Below, piece after piece: positions 44,156 to 48,066 of a DNA stretch of 64,000 bases. The notes under the pieces were generated by a model that saw only the letters and a list, made by a program, of their open reading frames with translations, was not told the origin of the DNA and ran no database searches. Position numbers and translations under genes: made by a program. The stretch covers positions 124,001-188,000 of the forward strand of contig NZ_JAALJI010000006.1 of assembly GCF_011064595.1 (NCBI RefSeq), given 5' to 3'. The stretch is from Paludisphaera soli (GTDB lineage: Bacteria; Planctomycetota; Planctomycetia; Isosphaerales; Isosphaeraceae). Position 1 is the stretch's first letter. Each line of letters begins with the position of its first letter.

Positions 44156-45832
44156 TTACAGATACCCCAGGTCGGCCAGGCGGCTCTGGATGGCGGCGTC
44201 GTCGTCGGCGTCGTAGGCCGAGCCGACGGCGGCGGCCTGGTCGTCGTGGCGGTCGTCGCGGTGGTCGGCGGTGGCGGCCAGCTCGGGCGTGAGCAGCTCG
44301 GCGAGGACGCGGCCGTCCATGTCGGCGGGGACGGGGACGCCCAGCAGGTGGAGGACGGTCGGGGCGACGTCCAGGAGGTCGGCGCCCTCGGGCGCGGCGT
44401 GGGGCCGGACGCCGGGGCCGCCGGCCACCAGGATCCCCTCCATCCGGTGGTCGCCGGTGGGGCCGAAGGCCGGCGAGATCAGCTTGTGGGTCGTGAAGTC
44501 GTGGAGGCCGATCGTGCGGTACTTCCAGTCCTTCAGGACCACGGTCAGGTCGGGGGCCTTGTCGGCGTGGGGGCCGTGGTACAGCTCGGCGGCCTCGTGC
44601 ACGCGCTCGACCAGCGGCTCGCCGGTCTCGGGGTTGGGGATCGCCATGAGGCCGGCCTTGATCTCGTCGAGCAGGGCGCGGGCGTCGTTCGGGTCGACGC
44701 AGCCCTGGGGCTGGCGGCCCTTGAGGTTCAGGAAGATCTGGCCGAAGTTCCCCTGGGCGTAGGCCCGGGTGCGCGACCAGTCGATGTGCTCGCGCGAGAG
44801 GAAGGTCTTCTCGCCCAGGCGGTCGAGCCAGCTCTCCTGCTTCCCCCGGAACCGGGTGACGCGGTGGTTCGCCATCCCCCACTTGCTCATCAGGCCGTAG
44901 AACCACTGGGGGGTCACGCCGCGGCGGTAGAACCAGTGCTTCTGCTTGACGTAGAAGTTGTCCTTGAGCGCGATGTAGCCCTGCTCCAGCAGCCAGACGT
45001 TGAAGTTGACGTAGTGCTCGATCGGCCCGAAGCCGTGGTCGCTCATCAGCAGGAACGTGGTGTCGGAGTCGGCCTTGTCGAAGATCGCGCCCAGGCCGCG
45101 GTCGAGGGTCTTCCAGAATTCCAGCAGCTTGGGCCGGAGGGCCTGCAGCTCCTTCTCACGCCCCTTGGCGGCGGCGTGGGTGGTGTCCCAGGCGTGCCAC
45201 AGCTCATGGCCGAAGCGGTCGGTGGCCATGAGGTCGAACATCAGGAGGTCCCACTCGCACCGCTCCATCAGGAAGGCGATGCTCTTGAGGTGCTGGTCGA
45301 GGAACGCGGTGAGGTCGTCGGTCACGGCCTCCTCGTTGTTGCCGTCGTGGATCGAGGTCGACCAGGCGTGATAGGGGCCGACGGCCTTCTCCAGTTCGGC
45401 GAACAGGGCGGGGTCGGAGGAGAAGTCGGGCGCGTTCTCGGGGCTGAGGAAGTCCCCCAGGTAGAAGCCGGGGAAGTCCTTCGCCGGGCGCGGGGGGTAG
45501 CTCATGGGGACGCCGCCGGCGATCGCCTTCTTGCCGTGGCGGGCGGCGACCTCCCAGATCAGGTCGGAGCGGATCGCGCGCGAGGAGTTGACCCGGCCCT
45601 TCATGGGGTCGTGGTCGTGCTCCAGGAACTCGAAGACGCCGTGCTTGCCCGAGTTCTTGCCGGTCATGACGCCGGTCCAGGCGACCGGGCTGAGGGGCGG
45701 GAAGACCGATCGCAGCTCGCCCGAGGCCCCGCCCCGGCGGAGTCGCTCGAAGTTCGGCAGCAGCCCGTCCGCGGCGAGGGGCCCCAGGATGTCCCAGGTG
45801 GCCCCGTCCAGGCCCAGCACCATGACCTTCAT
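44156..45832 (-). CDS. Alkaline phosphatase superfamily phosphodiesterase
   Basis: This encodes 558 residues starting MKVMVLGLDGATWDIL, where the Asp starts the metal-binding set. The nucleophile region is SPVAWTGVMTGKNSGKHG, and the second metal site includes LLMSDHGFG with the HDxH-like Asp/His. Further metal ligands lie in FDLMATDRFGHELWHAW and a C-terminal GDHRMEGILV. This is the type I phosphodiesterase/nucleotide pyrophosphatase group. The substrate is unknown. The C-terminal Asp/His-rich tail is a family extension. The start at 45832 was chosen because the Asp motif follows directly. Confidence 0.92.
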   Translation of the reverse strand: MKVMVLGLDGATWDILGPLAADGLLPNFERLRRGGASGELRSVFPPLSPVAWTGVMTGKNSGKHGVFEFLEHDHDPMKGRVNSSRAIRSDLIWEVAARHGKKAIAGGVPMSYPPRPAKDFPGFYLGDFLSPENAPDFSSDPALFAELEKAVGPYHAWSTSIHDGNNEEAVTDDLTAFLDQHLKSIAFLMERCEWDLLMFDLMATDRFGHELWHAWDTTHAAAKGREKELQALRPKLLEFWKTLDRGLGAIFDKADSDTTFLLMSDHGFGPIEHYVNFNVWLLEQGYIALKDNFYVKQKHWFYRRGVTPQWFYGLMSKWGMANHRVTRFRGKQESWLDRLGEKTFLSREHIDWSRTRAYAQGNFGQIFLNLKGRQPQGCVDPNDARALLDEIKAGLMAIPNPETGEPLVERVHEAAELYHGPHADKAPDLTVVLKDWKYRTIGLHDFTTHKLISPAFGPTGDHRMEGILVAGGPGVRPHAAPEGADLLDVAPTVLHLLGVPVPADMDGRVLAELLTPELAATADHRDDRHDDQAAAVGSAYDADDDAAIQSRLADLGYL

Positions 45833-46284: not shown

Positions 46285-46446
46285 TTCGTTGTGAGCGACG
46301 AGGCCGAGTCTGACGAGGCACTGAGTCGCTTCCCCAAGTCACGCCGAGAGATCCGACGACTCCGTCGGATCGCGGCAGCCCTCACGAGCAAGCGTCGTTC
46401 TCCCTGGCTGTGCCCGGCTCCCTCGGGGGGAGCCGGGCTTTTTTTT
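46285..46446 (+). ncRNA. Candidate structured small RNA
   Basis: This segment lies between a sigma54-like element and a strong terminator and has no convincing gene. A 9-bp hairpin (GATCCGACG / CGTCGGATC) is extended by a 4-bp stem (GCCG/CGGC), and outer stems such as GTGAG/CTCAC can close it. It does not match 6S, SRP, RNase P or tmRNA as far as I can tell by eye. An open frame through it (from 46279) would read across the terminator and gives no family. Confidence 0.4.
46412..46446 (+). terminator. Rho-independent terminator
   Basis: An 11-bp GC stem (GCCCGGCTCCC / GGGAGCCGGGC) with a 5-base loop is followed by eight T residues. It ends transcription coming from the left on the plus strand. 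No plus-strand gene precedes it, which is the main reason to suspect a small RNA. Confidence 0.9.
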
Positions 46447-46507
46447 GCGCTACGATGGCCGGCCGGGGACTTCGGCCATGGCTCGGGACCGTCACGACGC
46501 CGACTCA

Positions 46508-46530
46508 CCACGGGTTCTGCGAACCCGTGG
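46508..46530. repeat. REP-like palindrome 1
   Basis: CCACGGGTTC, three bases (TGC), GAACCCGTGG form a perfect 10-bp stem, followed by CACCCGG. It pairs in opposite orientation with palindrome 2. Confidence 0.85.
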
Positions 46531-46598
46531 CACCCGGCGCCGCACTTATCAGGTCCCTCGCTCAGCTTCATCGGGTCGTGGCGGATAACCCTCGGGTG

Positions 46599-46621
46599 CC
46601 ACGGGTTCTGTGAACCCGTGG
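46599..46621. repeat. REP-like palindrome 2
   Basis: The same 10-bp stem with loop TGT. It is preceded by CTCGGGTG, the inverse of the CACCCGG that follows palindrome 1, so the two form an inverted pair 68 bases apart. Confidence 0.85.
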
Positions 46622-46678
46622 ACCGGCGTCGGACCGATCTCGGGGCTTCGCCGAGAGGCTCGCCCAATCCGATTCGAT

Positions 46679-47263
46679 TCAGACCCCGTCGGATGAGCCT
46701 CGGGCATCATCGAGCGTCGGGATGGTCGGATCGATCTCGATCGGGACCGGACGAATGCCGGCGTACCAGCGGGCGCTCGACCACTCCCAATCTTCCGGCC
46801 GTTCCACGAGACCGCGGCGTACCGGATTGAGGTGGATATAGGCGATCACGGACCGGACCGTCGAAGGGTCCAGGATGTTCCGGTCATAGCCACCGCCGAC
46901 CTGCCAGAACCGCCGCTCGATGGTGCCGTCGCCGCGTTCGATGGTCAAACGTCTCAACCACGCGACGTCGTGCTCTTGCAGAAAGCGGATGGCCCGGAGC
47001 CCGACCGGCCGCTTGATCCTCCAGAGGATCCGGGAGATCTGGTACGGCCGCTCGCGCGGCGACAGCAGGATGTGGACATGCTCGGGCATCACGACGTACG
47101 CCCAGAGTTCAAAATTCATCGTCCGCCTGGCCGCTTCGATGGCCTCGACGAGCCAGTTCCGCGATCGGTCTCGGGCCAGCAGCGGGAGCCGCCGGTAGCA
47201 AGAGAAGGTCAGCTCATGAGCATGGCCGGGCTCGTCGATCCGCCGGCAGGCTTTTCGTGCCAT
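46679..47263 (-). CDS. REP-associated tyrosine transposase (RAYT, Y1 family)
   Basis: This encodes 194 residues. The HUH motif is MPEHVHILL, with the two metal-binding His residues, and the catalytic Tyr is in VIAYIHLNPVRRGLV. These, with a C-terminal EDWEWSSARWY block, identify the IS200-like Y1 transposase group of RAYT type, which nicks single-stranded DNA at palindromic REP sequences. Palindromes of one type flank it on both sides (46508-46621 and 47324-47418), fitting that role. The start at 47263 gives the usual N-terminus (HELTFSCYRR). It is probably immobile but may spread REPs. Confidence 0.92.
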   Translation of the reverse strand: MARKACRRIDEPGHAHELTFSCYRRLPLLARDRSRNWLVEAIEAARRTMNFELWAYVVMPEHVHILLSPRERPYQISRILWRIKRPVGLRAIRFLQEHDVAWLRRLTIERGDGTIERRFWQVGGGYDRNILDPSTVRSVIAYIHLNPVRRGLVERPEDWEWSSARWYAGIRPVPIEIDPTIPTLDDARGSSDGV

Positions 47264-47323
47264 GAGTCCGCCTGGCTCAATAGGTGAACGTCGCCAGCGG
47301 CGCTAGTTGACAGCTTTCGGCAA

Positions 47324-47346
47324 CCGCGGGTTCTCCGAACCCGTGG
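47324..47346. repeat. REP-like palindrome 3
   Basis: CCGCGGGTTC, TCC, GAACCCGTGG: the same palindrome with one G-T pair. It is located on the start side of the transposase gene. Confidence 0.85.
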
Positions 47347-47395
47347 AAATCGGCCTCGGGCCGGTCCCGAGCTGTTGCCGAGATCCCGAGCCGGT

Positions 47396-47418
47396 CCACG
47401 GGTTCGGAGAACCCGTGG
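47396..47418. repeat. REP-like palindrome 4
   Basis: CCACGGGTTC, GGA, GAACCCGTGG followed by CACCC. Its loop is the reverse complement of that of palindrome 3, so these two are also in inverted orientation, 49 bases apart. Confidence 0.85.
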
Positions 47419-47517
47419 CACCCAGGATCCCTACCGTCAAAGGCGTGGTCGAGGTGAGCAGGAAGGTCGGACCTGCTACGCAAAGGCTCGACGACCCCTG
47501 CGCCACCCGATTCTACC

Positions 47518-48066
47518 TTACAGCTCCCCGTCGACGCCCAGCTTGTGGAAGTAGTGCTCGACCTTGTCCTGGTTCTCCAGGAGCCAGTCGATGGAGGGGG
47601 CGTTGTTCAGGGCCTTGCGGATGACCTTGACGGTGGCCTCGCGGTGGACGTCGAAGAGGGCCTTGTGGTCGACGGTCCCGACGTCGAGCACGGATGGGTC
47701 GAGCCAGACCGAGTAGATGATCCCCAGGTCGTAGGCCTTCTCCTTGGGTATGATCCCTTCGCGGACGGCGTCGAGGACGCCGTGGGCGATCGCGGCCTGC
47801 ACGGTGCCCATCAGGATGTTCGTGTACTTGGCGTCCTTGACGGTGACCTTGCTGACCATGAGCGTGGCCGGGCGGACCTGGACGTCGCTGTTGAGGATCG
47901 CGAAGACCCGCGAGTGCCCCTTCACCTGGTCGCCCATCAGGGTCGCCAGGGCCGTGCCCACCGGCCCGTCCAGCTCGCCGATCACGATCTCCGGCTCGGC
48001 GCAGAGGTAGTCCTCGGAGCCTTCCACCAACGCCTCGCCCGTCCGCAGCAGGATGCGCTCGCTCAT
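47518..48066 (-). CDS. Formaldehyde-activating-enzyme-like (Fae) protein
   Basis: This encodes 182 residues. Fae condenses formaldehyde with tetrahydromethanopterin in C1 metabolism. Family blocks RTGEALVEG, PVGTALATLM, ATLMVSKVTVKDAKYTNI and AVREGIIP are visible. By recalled alignment to the Methylorubrum enzyme, the catalytic His (His17) falls at a Glu here, within LCAEPEIVIG, so this may be one of the Fae-like paralogues known from planctomycetes rather than an active Fae. The ATG at 48066 was chosen. No other C1-transfer genes lie nearby. Confidence 0.85.
   Translation of the reverse strand: MSERILLRTGEALVEGSEDYLCAEPEIVIGELDGPVGTALATLMGDQVKGHSRVFAILNSDVQVRPATLMVSKVTVKDAKYTNILMGTVQAAIAHGVLDAVREGIIPKEKAYDLGIIYSVWLDPSVLDVGTVDHKALFDVHREATVKVIRKALNNAPSIDWLLENQDKVEHYFHKLGVDGEL

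Follow-up and report, generated by a model that had tools for sequence, protein, structure and literature searches.

The locus lies in a 64,000-nt stretch of a Paludisphaera soli contig (hereafter, the window) and centers on a gene at positions 46679–47263 on the minus strand that encodes a protein of 194 aa. The protein matches the NCBIfam profile NF047646, “REP-associated tyrosine transposase” (RAYT), with 97.6 bits against a curated cut-off of 80 and Pfam Y1_Tnp with 24.9 bits (cut-off 23), whereas it fails the IS200 family model with 18.4 bits against a cut-off of 55. In an alignment of a clean set of 19 RAYTs, from which L024, L042, and L153 were omitted for stops in their stated span along with several others (e.g., L022, L028, L148, and L154), the HUH residues H62 and H64 (the HVH motif) and the tyrosine Y142 fall at conserved positions. 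A sequence search of the PDB gave 4er8, a TnpA-REP protein, as the sole match (E = 1.5e-5), and the AlphaFold model (mean pLDDT 87.8) has the same structure, a RAYT with a REP hairpin, as its best Foldseek match in the PDB (E = 1.3e-9, TM 0.63/0.74). An earlier, sequence-only reading had recognized a Y1/HUH gene with the HVH and Tyr motifs of REP-associated transposases, and family profile and alignment bear this out. The genome has no second close copy of the gene, which is present once at full length. A gene for the formaldehyde-activating enzyme Fae adjoins the locus (47518–48066, minus strand), and on the other side is a gene for a type I phosphodiesterase (44156–45832).

Four palindromes with 10-nt arms and a 3-nt loop surround the RAYT gene. 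On the left, REP A (46508–46530, minus strand) has the foot CACCC at 46531–46535, which is GGGTG on the minus strand, and REP B (46599–46621, plus strand) has the foot GGGTG at 46594–46598. On the right, REP C1 (47324–47346, plus strand) has a decayed foot (CGGCAA) and one changed arm base (CCGCGGG), and REP C2 (47396–47418, minus strand) has the foot CACCC at 47419–47423. The sequence-only reading had located all four correctly but gave the palindrome a CACCC/GGGTG flank, which is present on three of the four. It had also described two inverted pairs, one on each side of the gene; their positions hold, their likeness does not. Judged by its feet, which point outside, the right pair is a normal doublet with one decayed half and a 49-nt spacer (47347–47395, plus strand; nhmmer 92.6 bits), whereas the left pair is reversed, with the feet inside and a 91-nt spacing, and represents two half elements back to back.

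A 200-position model of the repeat element, built from ten copies, matches the window at 46551–46457 (minus strand), 46555–46659 (plus strand, nearly equal on the minus strand), and 47316–47459 (plus strand). These matches show the RAYT bordered on the left by a decayed outer arm, a REP, and a spacer, and on the right by a doublet with its right arm. The left remnant of an outer arm or terminal inverted repeat lies outside REP B at 46555–46593 (plus strand; nhmmer matches on both strands, 55.3 and 51.9 bits), and the REPIN spacer of REP B (46622–46659, plus strand; nhmmer, element model) is followed by the RAYT, its second REP being absent. The corresponding remnant on the right occupies 47424–47459 (plus strand), where the nhmmer alignment runs up to model position 190. 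A further half element lies outside, to the left of these RAYT-flanking remnants; here REP A adjoins a spacer remnant (46457–46507, minus strand; nhmmer with the same model, 61.6 bits, E = 2e-18) that has lost its second REP. This arrangement may mean that the window RAYT was once carried along in the frame of these repeats or that two elements inserted on either side of it. A terminator-like G+C-rich hairpin with a T run after it occupies 46408–46447, immediately beyond the left half element.

The palindrome CCACGGGTTC-NNN-GAACCCGTGG was found at 69 places with at most two mismatches in the 7.97-Mb assembly (197 contigs), and the reversed control pattern at none in the same genome search. The genome-wide search that the sequence-only reading had proposed thus reveals a dispersed family and not merely four local copies, and with this many dispersed copies the RAYT/REP interpretation stands. 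When palindromes with up to four arm mismatches were counted in the 39 loci fetched around the 69 places and weaker matches, 75 palindromes were obtained, which make up 44 elements (31 doublets and 13 single palindromes). The spacing is exactly 70 nt in 26 of the 32 pairs of neighboring palindromes that lie 60–100 nt apart, and the 26 spacers of 47 nt have a mean identity of 85% (range 68–100%). A GGTG foot stands at 71 of 150 palindrome ends, on the outer side in doublets, as in the head-to-head layout of REPINs. In full, the foot of this family reads GTGC (GGGTGC) and is one-sided, and it differs from the GT[AG]G-type feet described together with RAYT subclasses in PMC6006769.

All 44 elements are intergenic according to our own codon-based gene caller, by which 14.5% of the window is noncoding, and they mostly lie between co-directional or convergent genes. 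A search of Rfam returned weak hairpin matches only, far under the gathering scores.

Three RAYTs in the genome score above the family cut-off, each beside its own REP family. The second REPtron (G000:C1:210151–210803; L018, L135; G000 being the P. soli genome) has its RAYT at C1:210209 and GTAG-GGTGGGCA...CGCCCACC palindromes with 18 matches, and the third (G000:C143:26308–27026; L020, L124) has its RAYT at C143:26449 and GTGG-CCCGGGCGG...CCGCCCGGG palindromes with 19 matches. No outer terminal repeats were found around the doublets of these two families.

Named relatives of the window RAYT are mostly from planctomycetes, the nearest being that of Singulisphaera sp. GP187 (63%), and the REP beside the latter is close to the window REP. 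A 1.5-kb stretch of the GP187 locus recurs unchanged in the RAYT locus of G014, a genome of the same family as the window, which identifies this family as Isosphaeraceae. Among 59 genomes, including its own, the footed window REP (at most two mismatches) occurs only in G000 (71 matches) and in G002 of the same genus (41 matches). A search with the window RAYT alone gave no match in G002 at E ≤ 1e-3, and the REPs of G002 show no clear difference in decay when the match listing is judged by eye. In G005, also of the same genus, a RAYT 54% identical to that of the window is flanked by a different palindrome, GGGTGC-CATGGCCACGC...GCGTGGCCATG, which has 116 + 103 matches in its own genome at up to three mismatches. 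Repeated flanking hairpins were present at 15 of 43 RAYT loci scanned (the window locus included; L021 and L148 are the same organism), and all 15 show GTGG or GTGC directly at the stem or a few bases away. The REP thus goes with its RAYT, and the feet of this clade are GTG[GC].

Sequence conservation extends beyond the doublets. A left arm starts with GACACTCCTCACTCAACxCCACC about 57 nt (57–58) from the palindrome, and a right arm ends in the inverse of this start 49 nt from the palindrome, the whole being a MITE-like element with 22-bp terminal inverted repeats and the doublet as its core. As a single strand, one whole element folds into a continuous hairpin of −75.8 kcal/mol (shuffles −37.1 ± 3.4, z = −11.5). 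With class limits of our own choosing (model position ≤25 for the left arm and ≥180 for the right), both arms of the 200-position model are present in 22 of the 44 elements. Of the other 22, 11 begin at the left REP foot and retain the right arm, 4 have the right arm only, 3 have the left arm only, 2 are bare, and 2 are of other form. For G005, the best 30 loci (28 distinct elements) of the 116 + 103 matches were judged by eye, and most of these 28 elements are without one or both arms. Such copies with one or both arms missing, in both genomes, mean that REPINs occur outside the MITE, too.

Of 99 genomes searched, 21 gave a match to the terminal repeat; three or more matches were confined to four genomes of this genus and three of another (G021, G062, and G065). 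Single matches in distant genomes (L284–L286, L296, L302, and L303) appeared by eye to be coding and were not counted as elements. Just outside the terminal repeats, a repeated motif, AATTGGCTTCGTTCGGCGCG or its inverse, is often seen (L097, L099, L111, L113, L114, L116, L121, L133, and L134).

Target-site duplications were assessed by a search of six genomes of the genus for the terminal repeat and a comparison of 50 inverted-repeat pairs, from G000, G002, G004, and G005. The 8-bp flanks of these pairs agree at 6.02 of 8 positions, compared with 2.34 when re-paired (maximum 3.16 in 2000 re-pairings). Agreement at 7 or 8 positions was seen in 25 of the 50 pairs (re-paired mean 0.77, maximum 5) and was perfect in 14. 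The agreement is 0.75 at a width of 8 and only 0.22–0.40 at widths of 2–7, 9, and 10. Such a target duplication is a mark of a DDE transposon and not of a Y1 enzyme, and a length of 8 bp is typical of ISL3. The REP/BIME layout attributed to the locus by the sequence-only reading is confirmed as to doublets, feet, and copy number, but it is not the complete mobile unit, since half of the elements (22 of 44) have the doublet at the center of a ~200-nt element with terminal inverted repeats and 8-bp duplications.

In contig C20 of G004, a unit of ~1.46 kb is bounded on both sides by the terminal repeat (the contig start lies inside one repeat), and a 440-aa ORF within this unit is a DDE_Tnp_ISL3 transposase (Pfam 49.5 bits, cut-off 23). 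The ends of the ISL3 insertion sequence L196 agree with the terminal-repeat consensus of the MITE at 17 of 18 compared positions and at 19 of 22 positions. G003 encodes a transposase 56% identical to the ISL3 one in an 1844-nt unit with similar ends, and the IS copy L231, such an 1844-nt unit, has a perfect 8-bp duplication. Because the ends of the MITE match those of an ISL3-family IS in sister species, an ISL3-family DDE transposase is its likely mover. Homologues of the ISL3 transposase were not found at E ≤ 1e-3 in G000 or G005, and the presumed mover therefore appears to be absent from, or diverged in, the P. soli genome today. Related loci in different species are ~70–80% identical and have few shared flanks. 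L225 (a decayed frame in G000) and L205 (intact, in G002) have a similar flank on one side and are possibly the same ancient insertion.

The frame holds different REP cargo in different species. Frames of G002 contain the window-type REP, frames of 199 nt in G005 contain that species' own REP pair (L188, L189), matching its RAYT, and in those of G004 the pairs are of the GTGGCCCGGCCGG or the GGTGGTCCGGGCGG type. Elsewhere in the family, the frames L288 and L295 from other genera show perfect duplications and, by eye, unrelated inverted palindromes inside; inverted palindromes were also seen by eye inside the frames L291 and L294. Three short frames of G002 (L209, L250, and L251; 86–94 nt) have terminal repeats and 7-of-8 duplications with no room for a REP doublet. 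L185 of G005 is a 383-nt frame with REP remnants and another inverted repeat, of type GGCCACGGATGGACACTGATGAACACC.

In 13 of the 44 G000 elements, similarity begins at model position 51–53, i.e., at the left REP foot. These are the 11 right-armed copies mentioned above plus L105 and L112, which are foot-edged on the left and in which the right arm is partly or wholly absent. CGC occurs within five bases before GGGTG in 11 of the 13 foot-edged copies versus 1 of 21 two-armed copies (Fisher p = 3e-6), the background frequency of CGC being 12–15%; the list of 21 omits element B of L132 as well as L134 (no CGC in either by eye) and L225–L227 (no intact REP). Foot-edged starts were seen in 0 of 24 REP loci of G002, found with the footed pattern and with starts judged by eye from coordinates (Fisher p = 0.003 versus G000), and L213 and L244 of that genome are cut inside the spacer instead. 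The foot-edged copies would fit a sequence-specific cut at the foot in the RAYT-bearing genome, one genome pair being a small sample; as an alternative, the 13 copies may share ancestry. For one enzyme, a change of foot shifts the cut dinucleotide, GTGG going with CC and GTAC with GA or GT (PMC8266576). A guide-base pairing of this sort, by which a GTGC foot would direct a GC cut, would suit the CGC of 11 of the 13 copies, but the idea arose post hoc, and the GTGG family, for which CC is expected, has CTC before the foot in 4 of 6 pairs by eye; it is a lead at most.

We consider it highly probable that the locus is a REPtron of a familiar kind and that a DDE-type MITE carries its repeats. The anatomy is read directly from the sequences, and from it we infer which enzyme moves what. 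By analogy with TnpA-REP enzymes, the single-copy HUH/Y1 RAYT would bind single-stranded REP hairpins via the GTGC foot and cut nearby. On this reading, the REP doublets have spread largely as the core of the ~200-nt MITE, with its 22-bp terminal inverted repeats, arms of ~57 and 49 nt, and 8-bp duplications, probably moved by an ISL3-family transposase, and two mobility systems thus meet on one element. Copies truncated precisely at the REP foot, behind CGC(C)(T), could, with less certainty, be products of the RAYT. A more far-reaching proposal, which we put forward tentatively and with more doubt than belief, is that in Isosphaeraceae the ISL3-type frame and the REPIN form one lasting element. 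The DDE enzyme would paste the frame, leaving 8-bp duplications, and the RAYT of each species would recognize and rewrite the palindrome and clip or re-insert the element at the foot next to CGC, such that the frame would be kept and the palindromes exchanged with the RAYT.

In a plain REPtron, the RAYT alone would disperse the doublets, and the arms would be coincidental or would mark the MITE as a preferred target in which REPINs landed repeatedly. Armless REPINs do exist (2 bare ones among 44 and most of the G005 set), and repeated landing predicts what is seen in different species, the same frame with different REP pairs. The arms, however, stand at fixed distances (57–58 and 49 nt) in many copies, and the 8-bp duplications lie outside the arms and not outside the doublet, whereas the landing of a REPIN would not duplicate 8 bp around a 200-nt frame. 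Moreover, the sister species G002, in which no RAYT was found, carries the same elements, and we regard dispersal by the RAYT alone as improbable. It is very unlikely that the palindromes are the ends of an IS200/IS605-type insertion sequence with the gene as its transposase, as the Y1 fold and the presence of palindromes on both sides of the gene might suggest, given that the RAYT model was passed and the IS200 model was not, that one full-length gene faces 69 palindromes, and that doublets without the gene are in genome-wide excess. The notion that the palindromes are transcription terminators or selected RNA elements beside an incidental transposase would suit their strong hairpins and their exclusively intergenic positions, mostly with co-directional or convergent neighbors, but is very unlikely for a conserved element without a T-run, whose REP is wholly different between sister species and tracks the local RAYT, which has target duplications, and for which Rfam holds no match near gathering score.

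The preferred reading, a REPtron with its repeats in a DDE-type MITE, has much in common with the REPtrons and REPINs of E. coli, Pseudomonas, Stenotrophomonas, and R. baltica (RAYTs, PMC2817692; REPINs, PMC3116915). Shared features are a single REP-flanked RAYT with the RAYT fold, inverted doublets with outside feet, many intergenic copies, and several REP families with their own RAYTs. The differences are that the foot is GTGC (GGGTGC) here and GTAG/GTGG there and that the doublet here is often the core of a larger element with terminal inverted repeats and 8-bp duplications. A 2013 survey (PMC3733652) lists Planctomycetes, and R. baltica especially, among the carriers of REP families and of repeat-flanked tyrosine transposases, and the view of the sequence-only reading that descriptions of such modules are much scarcer for planctomycetes holds only in part.

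For A. variabilis, H. neapolitanus, and T. roseum, the same survey describes longer palindromes that enclose REP dimers, and these likewise are REP doublets within a larger conserved palindrome. Its passages on these dimers mention neither a target duplication nor a parent IS, whereas here there are 8-bp duplications, an ISL3 relative, and several REP cargoes. TIRtrons with their TIRYT (PMC3733652) also have a tyrosine transposase gene inside inverted repeats, and the repeats are dispersed, but in them inverted repeats replace the REPs; here both occur, and it is a DDE (ISL3) element that the outer repeats match. The present frame resembles IS-derived bacterial MITEs in being noncoding, ~100–200 nt long, and equipped with the terminal inverted repeats of a larger IS and a fixed-length duplication, and it differs in having at its core a REP doublet whose cognate RAYT is resident. 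A literature search by title and abstract, with subscription journals mostly outside its scope, returned no description of REPINs inside an ISL3-type MITE.

What RAYTs do has been learned chiefly from cutting assays in vitro and from rare excision reads (PMC8266576, PMC3116915), and the present system bears on how REPs spread. The GTGC foot widens the described set of REP feet. Because REP copies can ride in another transposon, REP counts of a genome alone are no measure of RAYT activity. One frame whose REP pair varies, found both in species where a matching RAYT was detected and in species where none was, makes it possible to tell the roles of the DDE enzyme and of the RAYT apart.
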